The notes under the pieces were generated by a model. That model was given only the letters and a program-made list of their open reading frames with translations. It was not told where the DNA came from and searched no databases. Below, in pieces: positions 4,772 through 26,355 of a stretch of 36,005 bases of DNA. How positions within the stretch are numbered: position 1 is the first letter of the stretch; the number at the start of each line of letters is the position of its first letter. Both the position numbers and the translations under genes were made by a program. This DNA comes from Bdellovibrionia bacterium (lineage in GTDB: Bacteria > Bdellovibrionota > Bdellovibrionia > Bdellovibrionales > UBA1609), in the NCBI GenBank assembly GCA_030432925.1, contig JAUILT010000024.1:1-36005 (forward strand), in the 5' to 3' direction.

Positions 4772-7700
4772 TTGGCTGAGCCCTTGAAAAAACACCTGCA
4801 ACTCTTCATGATCACTGCAATGGTAACAGTTCTTGTCGCCTGTGGCGGACAGCCTGAAGATGACCTTGATCCTGAAGATGTTTTTCCGCCTAACATGACA
4901 GTGAGCGATGCTGCGGTTTCCGAAGGGGGAGATCTTATTTTTACTTTGAACATTGATTACACTCAAGGCCTGGATGTGAGCGTAGACTACTCGGTGGTAG
5001 ACGTATCCACTACTGATGGGGTGGACTATCCATCGACATCGGGCACTGTGGTGATTCCCGCCTCCGCAGATATACTCACTGCTACTGTGACTATTGCCAC
5101 AATCCAAGATGCTCTGGACGAGGCCGATGAGCAGTTCAGCTTGGAGTTATCTAACCCTGTAGAAGCCACCATTGTTGATGGCACCGCTATAGGAACTATT
5201 ATCGATGATGACCCCTTGCCAGCACTTTCTATTTTTAATGTCTCCATTTCAGAGGGAGAGACTGCTACGGTTCAGGTCAGCCTTTCTAGTGTGAGTGGTA
5301 GAGATGTCAGCGTTGATTACTCCACCTCAGATGGAAGTGCGCTGGCGGGCTCAGATTATCAGTCTACTTCTGGATCTTTGCTGATTCCAGCAGGCAGTCT
5401 GTCTGGCAGCATTGAGATTGTCTCAGTAAATGATGGTATTCCCGAAGCTTCTTTGGAAAATCTATCTGTGAATTTGAGCAACCCCTCCAATGCCAGTGCA
5501 GGAGTGGTGTCGGCTCAGGTTGAAATTGAAGATGATGATGCAGGGGCACTGCCTTTTGCTTATATCAACGATGTCAATGCCTTAGAGTTCAATGACTGGG
5601 TCTTTACTGTGACTTTTAACTTCCCCACCCCATCACTGAGCAGCTTTGACTATCAGTCATTTGATGGATCCGCCACTCAAGCTCAGGATTACTCAGCAGT
5701 TAGCGGAACTGCCAATATTGGAATTGGGGTCAGCTCCGTATCTATCACCGTGACGGGATTGAATGATAATGTATTTGAGGGCACTGAGACATTCACTCTC
5801 TCTTTGAGTAATTGGGTTCATCTGAATGCTGGAGACGACCTTGGGGTTGGGACTGTCAATGACGATGAAGTGATGCCAGACTTGGTTGTGTATGATAGTT
5901 CCGTGACCGAGGGGGGAACCCTTGTTTTTGATGTGTCGCTCAGCGGACTCACCACAGAGGAAGTCACTTATAATTTTGCCACTACATTTGGCACAGCCTC
6001 TTCGGGCCTTGATTATGCCGCGATCACAGGAAGTGGAACTATTGCGGCTCTAAGCCTTTTATCTCAGCATCCTGTTTTGACAGTGGATGACTCCATTGAT
6101 GAAGACGTTGAGACTCTAGCTCTAGATTTATCTTCTGTAGTTGGGGCCAACCTTTTGGACAACTCGGGCTTGGGGTCCATAGGTGACAACGATGCCCCTC
6201 CGGTACTGAACATTTCAGATGTTTCCGAGTTCGAGGGAGCCACGTTGAGATTTATTGCTTCACTGTCGGCATTAAGCTCTAAAAATGTGACGTTCGTATG
6301 GCAAACTTATGACGAAACAGCTGAGAGTGGAGTGGATTTTATGGGAGGGTCATCTCTGACAACAATCCCAGCAGGAAGCAGTTCCGTCATTATAGCTATT
6401 CCCTCTATTCAAGAGCTGATTGATGAGCCAGATGAAACATTTGCCATCAGTCTAGGAAGTCTGATAAACGCTCAAACCGGTGTTTTGGGAGCCCAGGGGA
6501 TTATTCAAAACGAAGATGTACCGCCGAATTTTCAGGTTATGGATTCACTGGTGGACGAAGGGGACGTGGCCTTTGTTCTGGTAACACTCAGTCATCAGAG
6601 CATATCGGATATTGTTTTTGATTATACCACCGTGGATGGTTCCGCTACGGCAGTGGGTGACTACATAGCTGTGGCTGCCAATATTACTATTCCCTCAGGA
6701 AACCTGTTTCATATTATCAGTATCTCCACTGTCGAAGATTTACTGGACGAGACAGGAGAGGTGTTTTCAGTCTCAGTAACCTCACTGGTAGGAGCCACAC
6801 CTATAGACTTGAATGGTACGGTGGCTGTGACAGATGATGATGCTCGCATTGATATCTTTGATGCTTTGGGGACAGAAGGGGAGACGGCTCTGTTTGTAGT
6901 TTCCCTATCTAAGGTTCTGGCGGAGGATTTGACATTCAGTTATCTCTCCGGCTCATTGTCGGCCACCGATGGAGTAGATTACGGTTCATTGAGTGGGTTG
7001 GGCACTGTACCTGCTGGAAGTCTTCAGGTAACTCTTTCATCAATTCTAACGGACGATACAATTTATGAATCTACTGAAAACTTTGAGGTTTCACTTTTCG
7101 GATTGTCTGCCAATGCTGAAGCTGGTGACCTTTTCGCTGAGGGTTCTATTTCTGACAACGATACAGTTCCAGAAATTCATTTGGTCGATGTTGTGACTCT
7201 TGAAGGCTCCAATTTGGAGTTTATTGTGACTTTAAGTAAAGTTCCAGCATTGGAAGTTACTTTTGATTATGCAACAGCTGACAACTCCGCTACCGCAGGT
7301 TCCGATTACGCAGCTGTCAGTGGATCTGCCACTTTTGATGTGGGGGTTTTGCAAATCACCCTTGCGATCAGTGGTCAGGAAGATGCTGTGGATGAAGGGG
7401 TAGAAACTTTTAATTTGAATGTGTTTAATGCAGGTAATGCGACTATTGTTGATGGTACTGGAGTGGCTACCATAGAGGACAACGAGTCTACATTGTATGT
7501 ATATGATGCAGCAGCCAGTGAAGGAGAGACCATTTTATTCAAGGCATCCTTGTCTCGGGCTCTGGTTATAGACTCTTCATTTTCCTACAATACAGTTTTA
7601 AATGGGGATGCCATTGTTACAGATATCACTCCCGTTGCGGCAACAACTGTGACATTTGGAGCTGGGTTAACAGAGTTGAATGTGCCAGTGATCACTACTG

Positions 7701-10700
7701 AGGATGTGATTTTTGAGACCAATGAAACATTTGGGATCACCGTAGCAGCTCTTAATCAATTGCTTGCGGGATCTAGCGCTGCTGTAGGAACTATTAACAA
7801 TGATGATGCCGTACCAACCATCGATGTTTTTGATGTGGCCGTGGCTGAAGGTGGGTCTGCCCAGGTGAAGGTCTCTTTGACCTCCTTGACCTCTGAAGAC
7901 GTCTTTTTTAGTTATGCCACATCGGACAATTCGGCTACAGGTGGCGGCGTTGATTATAACACGGCCTCGGGGGTCTCGAGCATTCCTGCTGGAAGTTACG
8001 TCCGTTTTATTTATGTGCAGACAATAGATGATCTGTTGTTTGAGGGAGATGAGGTTTTTGATTTTTCTATTAGCGCTATTACCAATGCCAATCCTGGAGT
8101 GGTTTTGGGGGCTGTGACCGTTCAAGATAATGAGCCTCTCCCTAAACTGTATGCCACTCAGGTGAGTGCTAGTGAAGGTGATACGGCTACTGTGGTGATC
8201 ACTCTGGATTATGCCCACTCTCAAGCGACGTCTTTTAACTACAATACCACAGGGATTTCAGCTACCGATGGAGTGGACTTTGTGGACACTTCTGGTTCTA
8301 TTTCTCTGGCTCCTGGTCAGATGACTATTCAATTGGGAATTCCATTTAATACTGATGCAGTGTATGAGTTTGATGAGACAATTTCTTTTGATTTGGCAGG
8401 GCTTGTCAGCTTGAGCCCCGGACAACTTCACACCACATTAACCATTTTGGAGGCTTCATCCCCACCAGACCTATATGTTTACGGCGATGCTCAATTGGAG
8501 TCCCTACAAGGTGTGGCTGTTGTTTCTCTCAGCGGAAATTCCACTGAACGGCCAGTGACATTTGATTATAACACTATTGATGGAACAGCCAATGCGGCCA
8601 CAGACTTTGCCGGAGTGTCTGGGACAGCAACTATTAGTGCAGGTCAACAAGTGTTTGGAGTCACAGTTGTCTTTAACCCTGACACCAACTTTGAAGCTGA
8701 TGAGTACTTTGTAGTGACAATGACTAATGTCAATGGAGCCAACTCTTTGGTGGAATTTGGTGTGATATCCATTATCAATGATGATCCGGCTCCTTCTATT
8801 TTTATTGATGACGTTAATCTGTCCGAAAATGCTGGAACTATGAATTTTCTAGTGTCTTTGGATGAAGCTGGGACCAGTGATGCCACTTTTGCCTTTGTCT
8901 CATCGGCCAACACAGCTACAGAGGGTGTGGACTATATTGGAGTTTCCGGAGTGGGCACCATCCCAATGGGTAGCCTGACAACTTGGGTGCATGTGGCGAT
9001 CAGCGATGATGGAGTTGACGAAGCTACCGAATATTTCGATGTGATACTTTCTTCGCTGAGTAACGTCAACGTGGGCGATATTGTGGGTGCTGGTGCTATC
9101 AGTGATGATGATCCGGCCCCATTTGTATCTATTGATGATGCTGTAGCTCTTGAAGGGTCTACCTTGAGTTTTACTGTTTCCCTGTCTTTAGCAAGTGAAC
9201 AAGAGATTGTTTTTAGTTATGATACCTACGATACCGGATCTGCAGTGGCAGGTGTGGATGACAACGCACCCTCTGGAGCTGTGACCTTTGCCGCAGGAGT
9301 CAGCGTGACCACTGTGGACGTGGCAGTGTTGACAGATGTTAGCTTTGAAGCCACAGAGTCCTTTAATGTGTCCTTGTCGGGGCTGTCCAACGTTCAAAGT
9401 GGGGACATAGTTGCCACAGGAAGTATCACCGACAACAATACCCCCCCCTTATTATTTGCTTTGGATGCTGTGGTGAATGAGGGAGAGACAGTGACACTTC
9501 AGGTGACGCTGTCTGAGGCCTCTGGAGCCGATGCTGTTTTCAGCTGGAGTACTATGGATAATACGGCTCTTTCTGGAGCAGATTATACTGGAGACTCAGG
9601 AACAGCGACTGTTCTAGCTGGCAACTTGAGCACAAGTGTTCAAGTGGTTACTCAAAATGATGCTATTTATCAGGGGAACCTACTGTTTCATGTATCTTTG
9701 AGTGCTGCGACCAATGCCAGCTTGGGAGATGACTTTGGAAATGTCTCTATTATTGATGGAGAAACAGCACCCATTAGTTACTTTATTGTTGAGGGAATCA
9801 CTGACCCCACCACAGTAGGAGTTGCAGAAACTGTAACAGTGACAGCCTATGATACTTTGGGAGAGGTAAAATCTGATTATTTTGGAACCATTACTTTCAG
9901 TTCGAGTGATGGTACTTCTAGTTTGCCAGTCAATTATACATTTACTGTACCGGATGCTGGGCAGGCTGTTTTTGCCAGCGGTGTGACATTCAACTCTATT
10001 GGAACTTACTACGTGCGTGCTGAAGAGGTGGGGACACCGGCAGTGTTTGGACAGCAAAGCAATATTGATGTAAGCAATCCCGCAGCTCCCTGTAATGTCT
10101 CCACAGTGGGCTTTCAGGTTTCTTCTAGTTCAGGCAGTGAGACTTCAACTTCTGTAGATTTAGTGGTGGCCCTTTCTGAGACTTGCGCTACCGAGATCAC
10201 CTTATCTTATAACACCTATGATGGCTCAGCCCTAGCTGGTAGTGATTATACAGCAGCTTCTGGCGTTCTCACTATTCCTTCTGGCAACTCGTCGGAGAAC
10301 ATTAATATTTCAGTGATCAATGACGCCGCTGTTGATGCCAGCTCAGAGACTTTTCAGGTGTCTTTATCTAATGCTGGACCAGCCAATGTGGTTTTGGGGA
10401 CAGCCCTGCATACCTACACCATATTTGATGATGAGGGAACTCCGCCTTGCAACTCCTCAACTGTTGGCTTTATAGATAGCTCCGGCAGTGGTGATGAAAG
10501 TGTGGCTGATGCTTCTTATACGGTGTCGTTGTCACAAAGCTGTACTTCTGACGTGACAGTGAACTACTCCTTTGCTGATCTGTCTGCCACTAATGGCAGT
10601 GATTACTCAGGGACCAATGGGGTTTTAACAATACCTTCTGGTAGCTTAACAGCCAGTGTGCCGGTCACTGTAATGAATGACACTCTGTCAGAGACTCCCG

Positions 10701-12166
10701 AGTCTTTTCGGGTGAATTTGTACAATGCAGGTCCCAACGATGTGTCTGTGGGCCTTTCAGTAAGAGACTATACAATCAACGACGACGACGGGGGGCCACC
10801 TCCATGCAGTACCACTATTGGGTTTACTCAGCAAAACGGAACAGCTTTGGAAAGTGTGACTATTGTTAACTTGGAGCTGACTTCTAGTAATGCATGCTCT
10901 GGCTATGAGATCACAGTGGATTATTCTACAGCCAATTTATCGGCGACCTCGGGGTCTGACTATGTGTACGCCTCAGGGACTGCGACTTTTCCTGTGAATG
11001 TGACGACCATTACAATCCCTATTGTTGTAACGGACGATGCTGCCGCTGAATCTACGGAGTCTTTTCAAGTAGAAATCAGTAACCCACAGCCCGCGGGGGC
11101 CATTATTCTAGGAAACTCCGTTTATACCCACTCTATTTTGGATAATGATGGTGCCGGAACTATCTACTATGTAAGAGCTTCGGGCAGCGACGCCAGTGCT
11201 GGAACGTCTGCTGGAACAGCTTGGCAGACTCTTGGACATGCCATAGCCAATGTGGTTGCGGGAGATACAATTTTTGTAGGCTCTGGAGTTTATAATGAAA
11301 GCCTGACTCTTGGGGTGGCAGGAGCCTCTGGAAGTACCATTCAGTGGATTGGGGATATCACGGGCTCTAATACTGGAGACCCTGGGCCGGTGTCACTCAC
11401 TGATAGTGGGTCCAACCGGGTTTTGAATGTGAATAACAAAGGTTATAATACTTTTGACAGCTTTATATTTGCTGGGGCCACTGGAGGAGAGGGGATTTAT
11501 TCTGGAACAGGAGCCCCTGCGGGAATTATCTTTAAGAACTGCACTATGACTGGCAACTCTATTGGCGTTTCTTTAAGAAATGCTGGAGCTATGGTTTTTG
11601 AGAATAATATTGTCTCTAGCAACAGTACGGCAGCTGTTCAGTTGGATCAGGGAAGCTCTGACACTATTTTTAGAAACAACTTGATTATCAATAACTCAGG
11701 TAAAGGTCTGCAGTTGGTAAAGAATAACGCAAATGTCACAGTGATTAATAATACGTTTAACAATAATACTGGCAACCAGATTGAGGTGGGGCAAAATGGT
11801 TCGGCCATAATCACCAACAACATTATCACCAACGGTGGTGCTGGTGGCATCGCTAAGGTGAGCTCAGGAACAGCCACCATTGATCACAATGATGTCTGGA
11901 ATAATAACAGTGGCACTTCTAACTATACGGGGGGATTTGCAGCAGGGACCAATGATATCTCTAGTGACCCATTGTTTGTGGGGGGAGGGAGTTATAGGGT
12001 AGAAACGAGCAGCCCAACATTGGACTCTGGTTCAGCGAATGCCTCCACAATCACTTTCAGTGATGGATCCTCTATGGGAGATCGATCCACTCGCTCTGAC
12101 GGTGCCAGTGATGGTAACACGTTTGGGGGAGATGGTCTGATAGTCAATATGGGGTTTCACTATTAA
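4772..12166 (+). CDS. Giant Calx-beta repeat lipoprotein with C-terminal beta-helix
   Basis: The protein has 2464 residues. A TTG start preceded by AAGGAAAG gives a lipoprotein signal (KK, hydrophobic core, LVAC) with lipidated C24. From about residue 41 to 1665 there are 15 tandem Calx-beta units averaging 108 residues, each with an EG near its start, a central pattern like SATAGSDY..SG, and an acidic terminal turn (DDD/DND) of the kind that binds Ca2+ in this family. A different Ig-like domain occupies about 1666-1773. Three more Calx-beta units follow (from C1774, C1893 and C2012), each with a Cys pair. From about 2130 the sequence becomes a right-handed beta-helix (YYVRASGSDA..GTS, then repeated NN-rich rungs), like DUF1565/pectate-lyase-fold proteins. 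I infer a Ca2+-stiffened fibre anchored by lipid, with the beta-helix as a distal adhesive or glycan-binding tip. No catalytic residues are evident. It appears to be a single-gene unit. Confidence 0.93.
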   Translation: MAEPLKKHLQLFMITAMVTVLVACGGQPEDDLDPEDVFPPNMTVSDAAVSEGGDLIFTLNIDYTQGLDVSVDYSVVDVSTTDGVDYPSTSGTVVIPASADILTATVTIATIQDALDEADEQFSLELSNPVEATIVDGTAIGTIIDDDPLPALSIFNVSISEGETATVQVSLSSVSGRDVSVDYSTSDGSALAGSDYQSTSGSLLIPAGSLSGSIEIVSVNDGIPEASLENLSVNLSNPSNASAGVVSAQVEIEDDDAGALPFAYINDVNALEFNDWVFTVTFNFPTPSLSSFDYQSFDGSATQAQDYSAVSGTANIGIGVSSVSITVTGLNDNVFEGTETFTLSLSNWVHLNAGDDLGVGTVNDDEVMPDLVVYDSSVTEGGTLVFDVSLSGLTTEEVTYNFATTFGTASSGLDYAAITGSGTIAALSLLSQHPVLTVDDSIDEDVETLALDLSSVVGANLLDNSGLGSIGDNDAPPVLNISDVSEFEGATLRFIASLSALSSKNVTFVWQTYDETAESGVDFMGGSSLTTIPAGSSSVIIAIPSIQELIDEPDETFAISLGSLINAQTGVLGAQGIIQNEDVPPNFQVMDSLVDEGDVAFVLVTLSHQSISDIVFDYTTVDGSATAVGDYIAVAANITIPSGNLFHIISISTVEDLLDETGEVFSVSVTSLVGATPIDLNGTVAVTDDDARIDIFDALGTEGETALFVVSLSKVLAEDLTFSYLSGSLSATDGVDYGSLSGLGTVPAGSLQVTLSSILTDDTIYESTENFEVSLFGLSANAEAGDLFAEGSISDNDTVPEIHLVDVVTLEGSNLEFIVTLSKVPALEVTFDYATADNSATAGSDYAAVSGSATFDVGVLQITLAISGQEDAVDEGVETFNLNVFNAGNATIVDGTGVATIEDNESTLYVYDAAASEGETILFKASLSRALVIDSSFSYNTVLNGDAIVTDITPVAATTVTFGAGLTELNVPVITTEDVIFETNETFGITVAALNQLLAGSSAAVGTINNDDAVPTIDVFDVAVAEGGSAQVKVSLTSLTSEDVFFSYATSDNSATGGGVDYNTASGVSSIPAGSYVRFIYVQTIDDLLFEGDEVFDFSISAITNANPGVVLGAVTVQDNEPLPKLYATQVSASEGDTATVVITLDYAHSQATSFNYNTTGISATDGVDFVDTSGSISLAPGQMTIQLGIPFNTDAVYEFDETISFDLAGLVSLSPGQLHTTLTILEASSPPDLYVYGDAQLESLQGVAVVSLSGNSTERPVTFDYNTIDGTANAATDFAGVSGTATISAGQQVFGVTVVFNPDTNFEADEYFVVTMTNVNGANSLVEFGVISIINDDPAPSIFIDDVNLSENAGTMNFLVSLDEAGTSDATFAFVSSANTATEGVDYIGVSGVGTIPMGSLTTWVHVAISDDGVDEATEYFDVILSSLSNVNVGDIVGAGAISDDDPAPFVSIDDAVALEGSTLSFTVSLSLASEQEIVFSYDTYDTGSAVAGVDDNAPSGAVTFAAGVSVTTVDVAVLTDVSFEATESFNVSLSGLSNVQSGDIVATGSITDNNTPPLLFALDAVVNEGETVTLQVTLSEASGADAVFSWSTMDNTALSGADYTGDSGTATVLAGNLSTSVQVVTQNDAIYQGNLLFHVSLSAATNASLGDDFGNVSIIDGETAPISYFIVEGITDPTTVGVAETVTVTAYDTLGEVKSDYFGTITFSSSDGTSSLPVNYTFTVPDAGQAVFASGVTFNSIGTYYVRAEEVGTPAVFGQQSNIDVSNPAAPCNVSTVGFQVSSSSGSETSTSVDLVVALSETCATEITLSYNTYDGSALAGSDYTAASGVLTIPSGNSSENINISVINDAAVDASSETFQVSLSNAGPANVVLGTALHTYTIFDDEGTPPCNSSTVGFIDSSGSGDESVADASYTVSLSQSCTSDVTVNYSFADLSATNGSDYSGTNGVLTIPSGSLTASVPVTVMNDTLSETPESFRVNLYNAGPNDVSVGLSVRDYTINDDDGGPPPCSTTIGFTQQNGTALESVTIVNLELTSSNACSGYEITVDYSTANLSATSGSDYVYASGTATFPVNVTTITIPIVVTDDAAAESTESFQVEISNPQPAGAIILGNSVYTHSILDNDGAGTIYYVRASGSDASAGTSAGTAWQTLGHAIANVVAGDTIFVGSGVYNESLTLGVAGASGSTIQWIGDITGSNTGDPGPVSLTDSGSNRVLNVNNKGYNTFDSFIFAGATGGEGIYSGTGAPAGIIFKNCTMTGNSIGVSLRNAGAMVFENNIVSSNSTAAVQLDQGSSDTIFRNNLIINNSGKGLQLVKNNANVTVINNTFNNNTGNQIEVGQNGSAIITNNIITNGGAGGIAKVSSGTATIDHNDVWNNNSGTSNYTGGFAAGTNDISSDPLFVGGGSYRVETSSPTLDSGSANASTITFSDGSSMGDRSTRSDGASDGNTFGGDGLIVNMGFHY

Positions 12167-12177
12167 GAGGCTCGTAG

Positions 12178-12288
12178 TCACCAGGGAATAATTTGTGGAA
12201 ATAACTTATGTTCTTGTTGTAAAAAGGCCTTGGTCAGCCCCAGGCCAATGCCTCGAGATTCACCGGTAATGACAATGGCTTTGGGGTT
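12178..12288 (-). pseudogene. Remnant of a short-chain dehydrogenase N-terminus
   Basis: Read on the minus strand directly after the lipoprotein stop codon, about 36 open codons encode KAIVITGESRGIGLGL followed by TKAFLQQEH. This matches the beta1-turn-alphaA nucleotide-binding segment of classical short-chain dehydrogenases (TGxxxGIG). There is no ATG/GTG/TTG start, and after the helix the frame leaves the family pattern and stops. It therefore looks like a vestige left by deletion rather than a working gene. A chance match is possible but unlikely, given the full motif at the correct spacing. Confidence 0.55.
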
Positions 12289-12824
12289 CAGATGTCATCT
12301 CTGATTTTGATGAATTCCGACTTTTTGCCACGACAATCAGGGGCTGCCGACAAGCAAAGGATCTCACCACCTTCTTTGATACTATAATACAGGCTGCCTT
12401 TTTTAATAATAGCTGGACAGGAGAGTTTAATGTCAAATTTTTCGTCTTTCTCACTGGCTTCATAGGCTCTGGCTTCAGTGATGGTGATTTTGTTGCGTAC
12501 CCTTTGAATAGGCACGCGGACCATGGAGTAAACGATGAACCCCCGTTTTTGGCATTCCACGGCAAGCAGCATGGAGCGGGCTCCCTTGAAGATGAAGGCC
12601 TCTCTTCGGTCATAGCCAGAGTCTGTGCTGCTTTGAGCCTGCCTCCACAGCCCATCCAGGCCGTGGGTAATGGGACTCTGGGGGGTGTCAAAATATTTTT
12701 TGGCATAGAGTATGGAACCACCTTTTTCTACCTGGACGTCGTCTCCTTTGTTGACCGGGGTCGTGGTCACCTTACAGCCGAAGAGAGTAAGTGTAAGTGT
12801 CAGAATTCCAGTGATTTTTTTCAT
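12288..12824 (-). CDS. Small lipoprotein, unknown function
   Basis: The frame is open from a GTG at 12836, but the ATG at 12824 is the better start: the GTG lies inside the GGGGG ribosome-binding sequence just before that ATG. The 178-residue product begins MKKITGILTLTLTLFGC, a clear lipoprotein signal with a LFGC lipobox and C17 lipidated. The mature part is hydrophilic, with three further cysteines (in VECQKRG, LSCPAI and EILCLSAAPDC there are four Cys in all), so a disulfide-stabilised periplasmic domain is plausible. I do not recognise the family. It stands alone on the minus strand between remnants (the dehydrogenase piece downstream, a short secreted ORF upstream), which suggests the surrounding DNA has been rearranged. 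Confidence 0.8.
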   Translation of the reverse strand: MKKITGILTLTLTLFGCKVTTTPVNKGDDVQVEKGGSILYAKKYFDTPQSPITHGLDGLWRQAQSSTDSGYDRREAFIFKGARSMLLAVECQKRGFIVYSMVRVPIQRVRNKITITEARAYEASEKDEKFDIKLSCPAIIKKGSLYYSIKEGGEILCLSAAPDCRGKKSEFIKIRDDI

Positions 12825-13060
12825 ATTTTCCCCCACGAGTGGCCCAAACCTTCAAAAGTGTTCGCAGAACTTATTTTATTCAGATAAGCTCTTTTCAAGA
12901 TTGTTGTATTACAAGCTTATTCAGTCAACCTTACAGGAGAGAGCAGTGATCAATGCCGTCATTTTTGATGTTGGTCGGGAATATCGGCGAGCTCACAAAT
13001 TGTTTCATTGGCAGACGCAAGAACTGATCTAGGGTTGATACCAGCACCTTGGACGATCTT

Positions 13061-16484: not shown

Positions 16485-19394
16485 ATGAAATTTAAAAGTC
16501 TGTTTCTACTTGTCCAGATTTTCACGGTAGCAGTGCTCGGATGTCAATCTGTCGAAAAAAAATCTACCACAGACAAAGAGACGGTAACAAAGTCCACAGA
16601 CATCTACAACTTGCTGACAGAAACCAGGCAATTGACTTACGGAGGAAAACGCTCTGGAGAGGGCTATTTTAGCCCCAATGGGCAGTTAATGACTTTTCAG
16701 TCGGAACGAGAAAAAGAAAACCCTTTCTACCAGATTTACTTAATGGATATGAGTTCTGGAGAAACCAAACGGGTGTCTCCAGGCTATGGAAAAACCACGT
16801 GCTCTTGGATTCACCCCACTCAGAGAAAAGTTCTCTACGCCTCCACGCACATGGATCCTAAAGCCAGAGAAAAACAAAAAGAGGAGTTGGACTTCAGAGC
16901 CACTGGAAAAAAGCGTCGCTACAGTTGGGATTATGATGAGAACTATGATTTATTTGAGTCCTCCCCTGAAGGCAAGGTGCTTCGTAGACTGACCCGTGCC
17001 AAAGGATATGATGCCGAAGGTTCGTACTCCCCTGATGGGCGCTGGATTGCTTTTGCCTCCAATCGGCATGCCTACCTTCCCACAGCATCTGAAAAGATGA
17101 AAAAACAAATGAAAGTGGACCCCTCATTTGGGCTGGATATTTATTTAATGCGATCCAACGGTACTCAGTTGAAAAGGCTGACAACCACAGATGGTTATGA
17201 TGGAGGACCTTTCTTTAGTCCAGATGGGCAAAGAATCACTTGGCGTCGATTTTCAGAAGATGGACACACTGCTGAGATTTATACAATGAAATTAGATGGA
17301 ACTGATCAGAAAAAGATCACCCGCCTGAAAAGTATGTCATGGGCTCCATTTTATCATCCCAGCGGTGATTATCTGATTTTCACCACTAATCTTCATGGCT
17401 ATCATAACTTTGAGCTTTACATTGTTGATGTAGAAGGAAAAGGAGAGCCGGTTCGAGTCACAAATCTGGAGGGGTTTGACGGTCTGCCCGTTTTTACTCC
17501 TGATGGCAAAAAGTTGACATGGTCAAGGAAAGACAAAAGCGGAGAGTCTCAAATTTATATTGGCCAGTGGAACGATGAGTTAGCTAGAAAGCTGTTGAGC
17601 CTTCCATCGCCCCCCTTGAAGTTTCGTCAACTTTCTCCTGAGATCAAGGTTACAGATGCAAAAAAATGGATCAAATACTTGGCTTCGGAAGACATGAAAG
17701 GACGGGCCACGGGGTCTCACGAAGAAAAGGCCTACCAAAAGACAATGGTTGAGGTATTTAAAAAAATGGGGCTCAAGCCTGGTGGGCCTAGGGGGAGCTG
17801 GTATCAGAGTTTTAATTTTGTAAAGGCTGTAGAGGCACCTGCCAATAGTAATAGCTTTCGTGCAGGAGACACCTCTTTGGTTTTAGGAGCCGAGTACACA
17901 CCACTGGCTTCCAGTGCAACAGGGGATTTTAAAGGAGAAGACCTTGTATTTGCCGGTTATGGTCTAGTGGCTCCGGGAGAAGGGGCGATCTCTGCTTATA
18001 ACTCTTATGACAATATCAATGGCATCGGGCTTCAGGGACAGTGGTTTGTAATTCTCAGAGATATACCGTCAGAAGTGGATTCCAAAACCCGAGCTCATTT
18101 TTTTCGTTATGCTCGCTCTGACTATAAAGTAATGTTGGCGGAAAAACGAGGTGCCAGGGGCGTGATATTTGTTACAGGTCCTAACACCAAGTTGAAAAAT
18201 GAGTTGATGGAATTGAAATATGATAAAGCTTCTGGAAAGAACTCAATACCCGTAATCTCCATGACCAGAGAGGCTTTGAGCAAACTTCTTTCCAAAGACT
18301 CCCAAGTCAGTTTGCAAAACCTGCAAGCTCAGTTGGACAAAGGGGATGTTGGTAAGGTGCAAAGGTGGCAGTCAAACCCTTTTCAACTGGCAGCGCATTT
18401 AAAAAAAGAAATGGCTACTGGCACAAATATCATTGCGGAGTTGCGGGTGAATACGCGCCAACGACATTTAATAATAGGAGCTCATGGAGACCATCTTGGG
18501 GTAGGCAAGTCTTCCTCTTCTTTGATGCACGCTGATTCCGACACAGAGATTCATTATGGGGCGGACGATAACGCTTCAGGGATGGCTGGGGTTATGGAAG
18601 TGGCTCACTATATTTCTGACAGATACAAAAATAAAAAAATAAACCTCAGGCAAAACGTGAAGTTTGCCATTTGGTCTGGAGAGGAGTTGGGGAACTTGGG
18701 CTCCGCAAGCTATGTAAAAGCCATTGGTCGCTCAGGAGCAAGACAAGTATCAGCCTACATCAATATGGATATGATTGGTCGCTTGGGAGATCATCTTTCT
18801 GTACAGGGAGTCTCTTCGAGTACAGAATGGGATAAGTTTTTGGAGCAGATGACATTTATCAAAGCCATGGCTATCAAACCTCAATCTAGCCCCTATCTTC
18901 CTACCGACGCTATGTCATTTTATATGGCAGAAGTGCCAGTCATTAATTTTTTTACTGGTGCTCACATCGACTACCATACTCCTGGAGATACTTGGGAAAA
19001 GGTGAATTATCAGGGCCTTATTGACGTTTCTGATTACGTAGCTAAGCTCGTTGAAAAACTTGCTGTGAGAGAGAATGGGCTTGCCTGGCAAAAAATAGAG
19101 CAAAAAGACGGTGGGGCTCGGGGAGGATTCAGAATTTTTTTGGGGACCATACCAGACTATACTCAAGAAGGAGTTCAAGGAGTAAAAATTCAAGGTGTCA
19201 TCAAGGGGGGACCAGCAGAACAAGCGGGATTAAAAGGTGGAGATGTGATTGTTCAATTTTCCGAGCACAAGGTCCAAAGCCTCTATGATTATGTTTATAC
19301 GCTCCAGGTCGTTAAGCCTGGAGAGGCCACTACGATTAAAGTGGTTCGGGATGGTCGCACTGTCGAGCTGCCCATCACTCCCAAATTAAAGTAA
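16485..19394 (+). CDS. Lipoprotein with TolB-type propeller, M28 zinc peptidase and PDZ domains
   Basis: The protein has 969 residues, a lipoprotein signal (VAVLGC, C20) and an AAGGGG ribosome-binding site. Residues about 45-370 form a PD40/TolB-like beta-propeller (repeats such as GYFSPNGQLMTFQS, GSYSPDGRWIAFAS and PFFSPDGQRITWRR). A peptidase core follows from about 390, with a protease-associated (PA) insert around 450-590. The M28 metal site is complete: H667 and D669 (AHGDHLG), bridging D694 (GADDNASG), E733/E734 (SGEELG), D762 (NMDMIGR) and H831 (YHTPGDTW). A PDZ domain ends the protein (about 885-969; VIKGGPAEQAGLKGGDVI). M28 enzymes are aminopeptidases or carboxypeptidases using two zinc ions. 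I infer a periplasmic or outer-surface exopeptidase; the propeller may restrict access or bind substrate. It is transcribed divergently from the peptide-binding protein, 55 bp away. Confidence 0.95.
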   Translation: MKFKSLFLLVQIFTVAVLGCQSVEKKSTTDKETVTKSTDIYNLLTETRQLTYGGKRSGEGYFSPNGQLMTFQSEREKENPFYQIYLMDMSSGETKRVSPGYGKTTCSWIHPTQRKVLYASTHMDPKAREKQKEELDFRATGKKRRYSWDYDENYDLFESSPEGKVLRRLTRAKGYDAEGSYSPDGRWIAFASNRHAYLPTASEKMKKQMKVDPSFGLDIYLMRSNGTQLKRLTTTDGYDGGPFFSPDGQRITWRRFSEDGHTAEIYTMKLDGTDQKKITRLKSMSWAPFYHPSGDYLIFTTNLHGYHNFELYIVDVEGKGEPVRVTNLEGFDGLPVFTPDGKKLTWSRKDKSGESQIYIGQWNDELARKLLSLPSPPLKFRQLSPEIKVTDAKKWIKYLASEDMKGRATGSHEEKAYQKTMVEVFKKMGLKPGGPRGSWYQSFNFVKAVEAPANSNSFRAGDTSLVLGAEYTPLASSATGDFKGEDLVFAGYGLVAPGEGAISAYNSYDNINGIGLQGQWFVILRDIPSEVDSKTRAHFFRYARSDYKVMLAEKRGARGVIFVTGPNTKLKNELMELKYDKASGKNSIPVISMTREALSKLLSKDSQVSLQNLQAQLDKGDVGKVQRWQSNPFQLAAHLKKEMATGTNIIAELRVNTRQRHLIIGAHGDHLGVGKSSSSLMHADSDTEIHYGADDNASGMAGVMEVAHYISDRYKNKKINLRQNVKFAIWSGEELGNLGSASYVKAIGRSGARQVSAYINMDMIGRLGDHLSVQGVSSSTEWDKFLEQMTFIKAMAIKPQSSPYLPTDAMSFYMAEVPVINFFTGAHIDYHTPGDTWEKVNYQGLIDVSDYVAKLVEKLAVRENGLAWQKIEQKDGGARGGFRIFLGTIPDYTQEGVQGVKIQGVIKGGPAEQAGLKGGDVIVQFSEHKVQSLYDYVYTLQVVKPGEATTIKVVRDGRTVELPITPKLK

Positions 19395-23799: not shown

Positions 23800-24486
23800 T
23801 TAGAAGTGAACAGAAATAGCGGCTAGAGCAGTGATTCCTCCAAGTAAAAACATGGAATTTTTTAAATCTTTATCTTTTTCCTGACTGGCTTGGATAAAAT
23901 TTAGAGCAGAAATGGCTGCGTAGGTAGAAAAGTGAATCCATTTATTGGTTTGAGAATGGCTCTTTCTGACTTTATAGTAACTGGCAATAAGCTCATTTTT
24001 TTGTTGTAGAGTTAGAGATGTGACTCCGCTTACTGTTTGATAGAAAGACCGTTCTTCTCCACCAATGGAGTATTGGTAGTATCCGTAACCAATGGCTGCG
24101 ATAGAAAGAGACTGTGACAGAGAGTATACGGCTCTTTCTGGAGATTTATTGACGGAAGCATACCCTATACTTGACCCAATAAGAACGAGCCCTCCACTAA
24201 TCATATAAGCAAGTCCATTTTTCTTTTGAGAGATTTCAAGATCTTGAATCTGTTTTTGAAACGACAACCAGTCTGCAGACTTCAGATCAATGTTGGTTCT
24301 GTTTGATTTAACTCCAAAGATTTCACTTTTGGGTGTGGATTCTTCTGGGCTTTCATCGGGAATCAGTATTTGCGCCGGTCCCTTGGGAGAGTAGGTGCCT
24401 ATGAGTACCGCGATAAGCAAGGCTTTAAAGTTAGAAGACAAGGCCGAACTCCAGGTTAACGATTTCATCAGTTCGAGTAGAACCAT
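23800..24486 (-). CDS. Membrane-associated protein, unknown (third gene of an envelope operon)
   Basis: The protein has 228 residues from ATG 24486; an in-frame ATG at 24468 (MKSLTWSSALSSNF) is an alternative and neither has a good ribosome-binding site. The N-terminus has a hydrophobic segment (FKALLIAVLIG) that could be a signal or anchor. Later helices GLAYMISGGLVLIGSSIGYA, LSIAAIGYGYYQYSIGG and FLLGGITALAAISVHF are candidate membrane segments, separated by a charged coiled stretch (LSFQKQIQDLEISQKK). Family not recognised. It overlaps the preceding outer-membrane-type gene by 38-56 bases in another frame, which implies coupled translation. Confidence 0.7.
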   Translation of the reverse strand: MVLLELMKSLTWSSALSSNFKALLIAVLIGTYSPKGPAQILIPDESPEESTPKSEIFGVKSNRTNIDLKSADWLSFQKQIQDLEISQKKNGLAYMISGGLVLIGSSIGYASVNKSPERAVYSLSQSLSIAAIGYGYYQYSIGGEERSFYQTVSGVTSLTLQQKNELIASYYKVRKSHSQTNKWIHFSTYAAISALNFIQASQEKDKDLKNSMFLLGGITALAAISVHF

Positions 24487-25483
24487 TCCATTCAGGGTAA
24501 GATGTCTGTGTGAAGGAGACTCCTGTTTTTGCTGATAAAAAGCTGGTAGTTACTCCCAGAGACCAGGTGCCCTCAGAAATAGAGCCACTTGTGGTCATCA
24601 TTCCCAGAGAATAGGCAGTAAGTAGCTGTACTCGCTCCCAATTTTCTGGAAGTTTTTTGTCAAACCTATAGTTAATGCCAATATCCCAGTGTCCCCAGCC
24701 TTGAGATGTCAGTGGAGAAACGCCAATGCCAGTGTCAAAAAAACCATTATTTATAGAAGAGGGGGACTCTGCACCGGTATGATACACCCTAAGGTTTTGA
24801 AAGAAAATGGATGCTCGAGGCCTCCAAGGGCTATCATGTTCTATAACCAGAGCCGGTTCAACGTAAAGGCTTTCATGTTCAGAAATTTTCAAAAGAGATG
24901 GGTCAGCAAGTACATCAAAGAGTGCAAGGTTTTGAAAAACTGTTTTACGTTGGGCACCGCGAGCTTGAAGGCCTCCTCTAAAAACCCAACTCTTCCAGAT
25001 CATTTGATGAGAAGCTTGAATTCTTATTGATTTTTCAAGTAAGAATCTCATGTCTACAACCGGATAACTGCGGTTTTGCACGTCTGTATAAAAGTTCATA
25101 TGAAGGGGCACATAGGCAAAAGATAAAAAAGAATTTCTCATCCACAAAACAGATCCAGCTTCTAGTTGTAGAGGTTTTTCCTCTTCAAGGAGTTTGTTCA
25201 CTACAGCGAGTTCGTCCTTGTTATCCACATCTTTTCTATAAGCGTTGACTCGCTGAAAATTCTCTCCGATATAAAGGTTGGCAACAAATTGTCGGTGAGG
25301 ATGAGCTGTTAGTTGGGCTGGGCTACAGGGAAGACTAGCCTCAACGGGGGTGAGTAAGTGGCATCCTGGTCCCAATACTGTTTGTTGTAGGTCTAAAGGA
25401 AGGGGGCCACGCAGGCGGCTCCCCCTGGCCGGAGAGGCAAAGGAGAAAACAAACCATACAAGAAGAAAGAACCTTAGGAGCAT
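24431..25483 (-). CDS. Predicted outer-membrane beta-barrel protein, unknown (second gene of operon)
   Basis: The protein has 350 residues. It starts with a signal peptide (MLLRFFLLVWFVFSFASPARG), followed by a Cys-containing loop (GPGCHLLTPVEASLPCSP) and then many amphipathic beta-strand-like stretches rich in Trp, Tyr and Phe. It ends NLEFGLVF, a barrel-type C-terminal Phe. I do not recognise the family. Its start overlaps the end of the upstream lipoprotein gene by 10 bases and its end overlaps the downstream membrane-protein gene. A stable three-part envelope assembly is a reasonable inference. Confidence 0.78.
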   Translation of the reverse strand: MLLRFFLLVWFVFSFASPARGSRLRGPLPLDLQQTVLGPGCHLLTPVEASLPCSPAQLTAHPHRQFVANLYIGENFQRVNAYRKDVDNKDELAVVNKLLEEEKPLQLEAGSVLWMRNSFLSFAYVPLHMNFYTDVQNRSYPVVDMRFLLEKSIRIQASHQMIWKSWVFRGGLQARGAQRKTVFQNLALFDVLADPSLLKISEHESLYVEPALVIEHDSPWRPRASIFFQNLRVYHTGAESPSSINNGFFDTGIGVSPLTSQGWGHWDIGINYRFDKKLPENWERVQLLTAYSLGMMTTSGSISEGTWSLGVTTSFLSAKTGVSFTQTSYPEWNGSTRTDEIVNLEFGLVF

Positions 25484-26355
25484 GATTCCTCCTCAATCCA
25501 CTCCACTGCTTTTAGGAAGTATTCAAAGGTTTCAGGATCCATCTTCTTTATGGCATCTTTAAGGTCAGCTTTACTGACAGTATCAATCAGTGGATCCAAT
25601 GAGTTTTTTTGACGAGGTAGAGCTTTTGATAGGTCAGTGAGAACATCAAGAATAGCATTTCGTACTTGTATGAGATCTCTTTCAAGGGGGAGCAGTTTTA
25701 ATGGACATTGATGGATCGCTGAGAAGTATTTTTTATTTTTTATTTTATAGTTAATTAAAAAGAGTCGAAGAGCACTGCGAAACAAAAAATTTCCTGTTGT
25801 CATCCATTCGTTGTCATCGGATATCAAGTCAATAGCTGCTTCTAGGTCAGAGGCCCCTCCAGAAAGAGGAGCCGGAAGTGAATAAGCCAGTTTTACTATT
25901 TGGCTGGTCAAAAACAGAAATCTATAAAATTTAAAAATGTACTTTTTGGTGCTTTCAGCTTCTCTCCAAGAGGGGTTTATAGAAACTAGAAAATTCAGTT
26001 GCTCATCCATCAGCTGGAATACTTTTGACTGATCAGAAGATAGGTTTCTAAGGTTTTTAAGAAATTCCACGAATCGGGACATTTTAATGCCTGACCTATG
26101 TACATAGGCTGATGCCAAGACAATTCGCACCTGATTTTGTTCTACGGACATTTCTTGGTCATTGAACCAGGGCTCAAGAACTTGAATGGCCTGGTCTGGG
26201 TTCCCCTGGTCAATCCAGTAGCTGGCTTCTTCAATAGCCAGTTGTTGTTGTGTTACTGAGGCATTTTGGTGATTCTGCATTGAACAGGATATGAGCAAGC
26301 CTGTACAGAATACAGTCAGCAATCGCCTCAAGTTATTGAAAATCTGCCATTTCAA
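25474..26355 (-). CDS. Alpha-helical lipoprotein, unknown (first gene of operon)
   Basis: The protein has 293 residues with a lipoprotein signal (RRLLTVFCTGLLISC, C24 lipidated). The mature protein appears all-helical, with a TPR-like opening (EEASYWIDQGNPDQAIQVLE) and long helices after it; it ends in EEESCS. This resembles periplasmic helical-repeat lipoproteins that scaffold outer-membrane complexes, but there is no specific family match that I can see. It heads an overlapping three-gene operon with a beta-barrel-type protein and a membrane protein. The gene runs divergently from the secreted alpha/beta hydrolase; the gap holds no clear promoter. Confidence 0.78.
   Translation of the reverse strand: MKWQIFNNLRRLLTVFCTGLLISCSMQNHQNASVTQQQLAIEEASYWIDQGNPDQAIQVLEPWFNDQEMSVEQNQVRIVLASAYVHRSGIKMSRFVEFLKNLRNLSSDQSKVFQLMDEQLNFLVSINPSWREAESTKKYIFKFYRFLFLTSQIVKLAYSLPAPLSGGASDLEAAIDLISDDNEWMTTGNFLFRSALRLFLINYKIKNKKYFSAIHQCPLKLLPLERDLIQVRNAILDVLTDLSKALPRQKNSLDPLIDTVSKADLKDAIKKMDPETFEYFLKAVEWIEEESCS

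Follow-up and report, generated by a model that had tools for sequence, protein, structure and literature searches.

The window analyzed here is a whole stretch of 36,005 nucleotides of the Bdellovibrionia bacterium contig JAUILT010000024.1, from a 3.04 Mb draft genome that is 96% complete; the bacterium is uncultured and belongs to the Bdellovibrionales (Bdellovibrionota). On its forward strand lies an uninterrupted open reading frame, at positions 4772-12166, whose 2464 codons specify a protein of 2464 residues. It starts with TTG, a few bases 3' of an AAGGA. From the N- to the C-terminus, the protein is made up of a signal peptide, an acidic linker of 12 residues, 15 Calx-beta repeats, an insert, three further Calx-beta repeats and a right-handed beta-helix:

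4772-4840, forward strand: predicted lipoprotein signal peptide, residues 1-23, with the TTG start and the lipobox L-V-A-C (lipobox scan; equivalent in the same-genus orthologue)
4841-4876, forward strand: putatively lipidated Cys24 and invariant linker CGGQPEDDLDPE, residues 24-35 (12/12 identity with the orthologue, locus L052)
4907-9766, forward strand: proximal stalk, Calx-beta repeats 1-15, residues 46-1665 (Pfam Calx-beta; repeat alignment; TM-score)
9767-10084, forward strand: probable Ig-like insert, residues 1666-1771, ~106 in all (counterpart in the orthologue, locus L051, E 1.1e-19)
10085-11155, forward strand: distal block, Calx-beta repeats 16-18 (residues ~1772-2128), all three of which have a Cys pair (Cys pairs; domain survey; tree)
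11156-12163, forward strand: right-handed parallel beta-helix tip, residues 2129-2464 (Pfam Beta_helix; AlphaFold2; Foldseek)

Pfam reports Calx-beta over 18 stretches of the protein (E 1.1e-167), Beta_helix at residues 2219-2350 (E 1.4e-17) and NosD (E 1.1e-8), a domain signal that exceeds chance by far. The first-pass annotation had proposed about 18 Calx-beta units in a single lipoprotein of 2464 residues, and the open frame, the 18 Pfam stretches and an LVAC lipobox with Cys24 bear this out.

Elsewhere in the window, a downstream gene of 182 codons (12288-12836, reverse strand) has a lipoprotein-like N-terminus, as read from its sequence, and no Pfam or NCBIfam match. A protein of 969 residues (16485-19394, forward strand) combines PD40 propeller repeats with an M28 peptidase and a PDZ domain, and three overlapping or adjacent genes at 23800-26355 (reverse strand; 228, 350 and 293 residues) are without a Pfam or NCBIfam match.

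The Calx-beta stalk and its beta-helix tip

The Calx-beta repeats are arranged head to tail in two blocks, residues 46-1665 (n = 15) and ~1772-2128 (n = 3). Their mean pairwise protein identity in the repeat alignment is 31%, and no DNA tandem repeats were detected by TRF; the array is therefore old, and a recent expansion of the repeats is ruled out on the same grounds. Variation in repeat number, considered earlier, thus finds no support as a product of slippage.

The columns of the repeat alignment that correspond to Ca2+ ligands, matched to the ligand positions of NCX1 CBD1, contain Glu in 18 of 18 repeats, Asp in 18 of 18, Asp in 17, Glu in 16 and Glu in 17, and the terminal triplet is rich in D/N (D/N/E). 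These columns are spaced as in NCX CBD1, to which the repeats are similar in sequence and fold, and single Calx-beta domains of the second predicted model have a TM-score of ~0.9 to CALX CBD1. The repeats thus show the CBD1 fold and the conserved Ca2+-ligand columns of Calx-beta domains. They would be expected to take up Ca2+ at conserved sites close to where neighbouring domains join, producing an extended, Ca2+-stiffened stalk, roughly 80-90 nm long if each domain contributes 4-5 nm.

Two features set the distal region apart. Repeats 16-18 each have a Cys pair (1774/1805, 1893/1924 and 2012/2042), and they are preceded by the insert, for which a single counterpart was found among the surveyed proteins, that of L051. 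The first-pass annotation had called this insert Ig-like. It is real and conserved in a relative, while its Ig fold stays unconfirmed, the AlphaFold2 confidence being low in this region (the alignment covered the repeats only).

For the tip, AlphaFold2 predicted from a 20-row alignment a parallel beta-helix (pLDDT 81.5, pTM 0.82), of which the last 40 residues are unreliable. The best Foldseek match is the Pel9A pectate lyase 1ru4 (E 2.8e-7), and the nearest solved folds are Pel9A, XylC (GH120), PL9 rhamnogalacturonan lyase, the GH136 lacto-N-biosidase and AlgE4; tailspikes appear further down the list, and viral helix proteins match too. The tip had been described at first pass as a DUF1565/pectate-lyase-like beta-helix. 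The fold is confirmed, with Pel9A as its nearest relative, but we dropped DUF1565 as a name, since Pfam gave no such match for the 2464-residue protein at E<=1.

As polysaccharide lyases and glycosidases have this same helix fold and provide its closest structural matches, one may ask whether the protein is a cell-tethered polysaccharide enzyme, in which a long stalk would keep a working lyase, epimerase or glycosidase away from the cell. We find this unlikely. The identity of the tip to the structurally matched enzymes is just 12-18%, and Pfam places no part of the 2464-residue protein in a PL or GH family. The DxNDVW motif at the end of the tip is common to many unrelated helix proteins. PL9 enzymes require clustered Asp for Ca2+, and the central rungs of the tip, between residues 2210 and 2370, are devoid of DD, DxD or DxxD; for these two reasons, we think it more probable that the tip binds than that it cuts. 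Its single clustered Asp pair, D2371/D2374, is close to the C-terminal edge. Compared with Pel9A-like and DUF1565-type right-handed beta-helices, the tip has the same fold, but no clustered acidic site was found in its central rungs and it is fused to a Calx-beta stalk. We propose that the stalk presents a beta-helix that would bind, probably without cleaving it, a polysaccharide or surface glycan belonging to prey, a host surface or a biofilm.

Paralogues, orthologue and pilin-type relatives

Four giant Calx-beta proteins, including the present one, are encoded in the source genome, and the other three differ in their tips. The first (C22) has at least 3164 residues, a lipobox LIAC, and FN3 and FG-GAP domains toward its C-terminal side, where the contig end cuts the gene. 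The second (C142) has 1456 residues, a lipobox VMSC and seven FG-GAP repeats. In the third (C171), which has at least 3957 residues and whose N-terminus is cut off, Calx-beta domains alternate with long intervening segments, and laminin-G-like, FG-GAP and Lcl_C parts are present.

The orthologue in a genome of the same genus (G002) was assembled from L052 and L051, two contigs joined by inference only, the middle being missing. L052 has the same lipobox region, with 12 identical residues out of 12 in the linker, and is colinear with the window protein (38.9% identity over 435 residues) up to its contig end. L051 begins in Calx-beta and is 31.5% identical to residues 1265-1940 of the window protein, insert included; downstream of the aligned part come Big_2 and then PA14 (E 1.6e-19). 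No helix was found in G002. Provided that the inferred contig join is correct, the sister-species orthologue would keep the lipobox, linker, stalk and insert, but end in Big_2 and PA14. In L051, at 2290-2420, the Big_2 region is interrupted after its first Big_2 by an in-frame TAA, with the other Big_2 part and PA14 lying beyond it; a pseudogene, a genuine stop or a misassembly may account for this.

A whole-protein search of named genomes returned no relative. The search with the helix alignment gave 29 loci, and Calx-beta and helix occur together only in a Pseudobdellovibrionaceae locus; in a further match from elsewhere in the phylum (L141), the protein has a signal peptide, and its helix is not preceded by Calx-beta. 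The Pseudobdellovibrionaceae locus belongs to isolate CSMAG_230 (G010, JAUVAX010000016.1), a bacterium of the same family. Its helix is 38% identical to the window tip, and the protein consists of a T2SSG/N_methyl pilin N-terminal region, one Calx-beta domain and then the helix. At this locus (L047, 5416-9213), two neighbouring genes code for unusually large T2SSG-type pilins, and it is the second that has Calx-beta, helix and a glycine-rich C-terminus; as no ATG, GTG or TTG was found ahead of its pilin motif, where it starts is uncertain.

The Calx-beta domain of the CSMAG_230 protein shares with window repeats 16-18 a Cys pair that is present in just 5 of 221 surveyed Calx-beta domains. In a tree of these 221 domains, window repeats 16-18 and the pilin-type L047, L066 and L106 form an exclusive clade (support 0.949). 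The Cys pair and this clade suggest that the distal region of the window protein and the proximal stalk have different histories.

Judging from these alignments, the tip is not a fixed element: the same-genus orthologue appears to carry Big_2 and PA14 in its place, and the nearest helix homologue sits on a pilin. We therefore picture an exchangeable tip, in which Cys-pair repeats and helix would share ancestry with pilin-anchored proteins, the same stalk bearing a PA14 tip in the sister species. The alternative tips and anchors of close relatives suggest an uncharacterized family of exchangeable surface fibres. A quite different role would be that of a structural matrix protein, self-associating in biofilms or at cell-cell contacts through Ca2+-dependent binding of repeat to repeat, with the helix as a mere cap; BapP, a Calx-beta-containing adhesin of Pseudoalteromonas tunicata, does act in biofilms in a Ca2+-dependent manner (PMC12153261). 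We hold this to be rather improbable here, as the exchange of whole C-terminal cassettes suggests that the tip, and not the stalk, sets specificity.

Lipid anchor and probable export route

Residues 21-24 of the window protein form the lipobox LVAC (LVAC|GG, the Cys being residue 24). With its predicted signal peptide, lipobox and Cys, and with LVAC kept in the orthologue, the protein has the marks of a Gram-negative lipoprotein.

Calx-beta was found in 29 of 59 relatives. We surveyed the anchors of the Calx-beta open reading frames with a readable N-terminus in the fetched loci (n = 44), along with the other reading frames of those loci (n = 191). A fixed pattern detected a lipobox in at least 31 of the 44, against 29 of the 191. 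Among the remaining 13 Calx-beta reading frames, a clear lipobox was recognized by eye in four more (L059, L112, L122, L123), a YQNC-type sequence in two (L063, L134), a pilin N-terminus in four (L061, L066 and L106 by pattern, L047 by Pfam) and a Sec-type N-terminus in one (L058), and two had no clear class (L104, L119). These counts indicate that a lipid anchor is the predicted norm for Calx-beta proteins of Bdellovibrionales, with a type II/IV pilin stem as the alternative.

Two further sets of lipoproteins were encountered among these loci. One genome (G044) has two pairs of neighbouring Calx-beta lipoproteins of ~1010 residues, every one with C-L-E-N after the lipobox (L125, 6575-12645; L126, 3232-9306), a local multigene family. 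In two same-genus genomes (G048 and G053; L057 and L135), a lipoprotein of 2579 residues, equal in length in both, combines Big, FN3, Calx-beta and an RCC1-like propeller.

The first-pass annotation held that the lipobox replaces a type I route. This proposal was abandoned: most Calx-beta proteins of the order have a lipobox and a minority a pilin N-terminus, and no match to the type I component HlyD (TIGR01843) was found in the 96% complete genome. Pfam likewise found no RTX repeats in the 2464-residue protein, whose C-terminus is a beta-helix. With neither RTX nor HlyD found, type I secretion was rejected. It had also been noted that no secretion genes are adjacent, and the likely exporter is indeed not next to the gene, but type II genes exist elsewhere in the genome. 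GspD scores above its cut-off and has a GspC-like gene beside it on the same contig; another contig carries three consecutive genes, a GspL/PilM-like one, one of 231 codons of no assigned family and a GspN-like one. At 45.1 bits, the GspN-like protein falls short of its curated cut-off, which is 50. Slam (SlipAM, PF04575), considered as an exporter, had no match in the genome, and none in the control genomes either, which makes this negative result not decisive.

In Acinetobacter, the lipidated adhesin InvL depends on GspN to reach the surface by type II secretion, as does PulA in Klebsiella (PMC12802150). For InvL, the Cys must also be followed by a Gly/Ser or Asn/Asp motif, GGG and ND(N/D) being found, with Gly/Asp mixtures in other species (PMC12802150). 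From Cys24 on, the window protein reads CGGQPEDD. The linker CGGQPEDDLDPE and its perfect conservation would fit a role as a type II export motif, a hypothesis by analogy; the other lipoproteins here are without the motif, and the residues that follow the Cys differ widely among those surveyed. The CGGQPED codons occur, among 60 genomes, in this genome and G002 alone. CGGQPED as a general sorting signal is ruled out, as it is confined to this gene and its orthologue. The system thus resembles the GspN-dependent InvL and PulA in its lipobox, in the Gly-rich and acidic residues after the Cys and in the presence of GspD and a GspN-like protein; it differs in that the GspN match is below the curated cut-off and that export dependence is known for InvL and PulA, whereas here it is the genes that are found (PMC12802150). 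We suppose that the precursor passes Sec and receives its lipid at Cys24, and that it is then carried across the outer membrane, most probably by type II secretion with the GspN-like protein, the lipid then holding the fibre at the cell surface.

Although a lipobox by itself is no proof of surface exposure, Pal and other lipoproteins remaining inside (PMC12802150), a periplasmic scaffold or spacer kept on the inner face of the outer membrane is an unlikely alternative, given a 250 kDa chain of 18 domains that should be far longer than the periplasm is wide, domain types that are those of adhesins, tips that vary among relatives and related tips on pilin-type proteins.

Comparison with known surface fibres

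All the evidence fits the lipid-anchored, Ca2+-binding surface fibre with a helix tip that was proposed at first pass; the meaning of the anchor, the export and the fixed tip are what we have revised. We consider it probable that the protein is exported by a type II system and displayed on the surface as a fibrillar adhesin, stiffened by Ca2+ and carrying an exchangeable tip that binds glycans. The gene is real and well defined, and we infer that its product is a variant of the fibrillar adhesins, with the function of one. What appears unusual is the exchange of tip cassettes between lipid- and pilin-anchored proteins, and not the lipid anchor. A broader proposal, which we put forward tentatively and with less conviction, is that Bdellovibrionales possess a second mosaic fibre system beside the MAT (mosaic adhesive trimer) fibres, in which tip cassettes of Calx-beta stalks (Cys-pair Calx-beta with beta-helix, PA14, FG-GAP or RCC1 propellers) are exchanged between an outer-membrane lipid anchor, with GspN-type type II export, and a type II/IV pilin stem; any direction of such exchange is likewise something we infer.

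The wider question is how predatory and related bacteria recognize varied prey or surfaces, to which MAT fibres and MIDAS adhesins are known answers in Bdellovibrio. If our proposal is true, widespread giant Ca2+-binding lipoproteins with exchangeable tips would form a further recognition repertoire. The family would also allow GspN-type type II secretion of very large lipoproteins to the surface to be tested outside the species studied, and the question to be asked how one tip comes to be found on a pilus stem as well as on a lipid anchor. A full-text literature search found no paper that treats Calx-beta together with Bdellovibrio.

The protein shares with fibrillar adhesins (PMC8286594) a long tandem Ig-fold stalk, here of 18 Calx-beta domains, a C-terminal domain of another fold, the mixing of stalks and tips and, in the orthologue, PA14, one of the commonest adhesive domains on fibrillar stalks. 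It differs from them by its N-terminal lipid anchor and by its beta-helix tip, which is outside the recognized adhesive Pfam domains and whose adhesive role is putative; the words Calx and lipoprotein are absent from the text of that survey (PMC8286594). With the RTX and Bap adhesins, such as LapA and BapP of P. tunicata, which both contain Calx-beta and are a differently anchored kind of adhesin, it has in common a large, Ca2+-binding Calx-beta extender region (PMC12153261). In contrast to them, it has no RTX repeats, its genome has no detected HlyD, and its anchor is an N-terminal lipid.

In the trimeric MAT fibres of B. bacteriovorus, the N-terminal domain stays constant and the tips vary, and tip swapping has been discussed by the authors who described them (PMC10769870). 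They come from the same bacterial order, and here too the fibres of a repertoire have a base that does not vary and C-terminal tips that can be interchanged. The chains of a MAT trimer are intertwined, and over half of the MAT fibres have an S74 chaperone domain. The window protein, in contrast, joins a Calx-beta chain to a single-chain helix and has a lipid anchor, and Pfam found none of the S74/NS74 tip domains in it. By this comparison, the Calx-beta fibre family would follow a logic similar to that of the MAT fibres, with unrelated parts.
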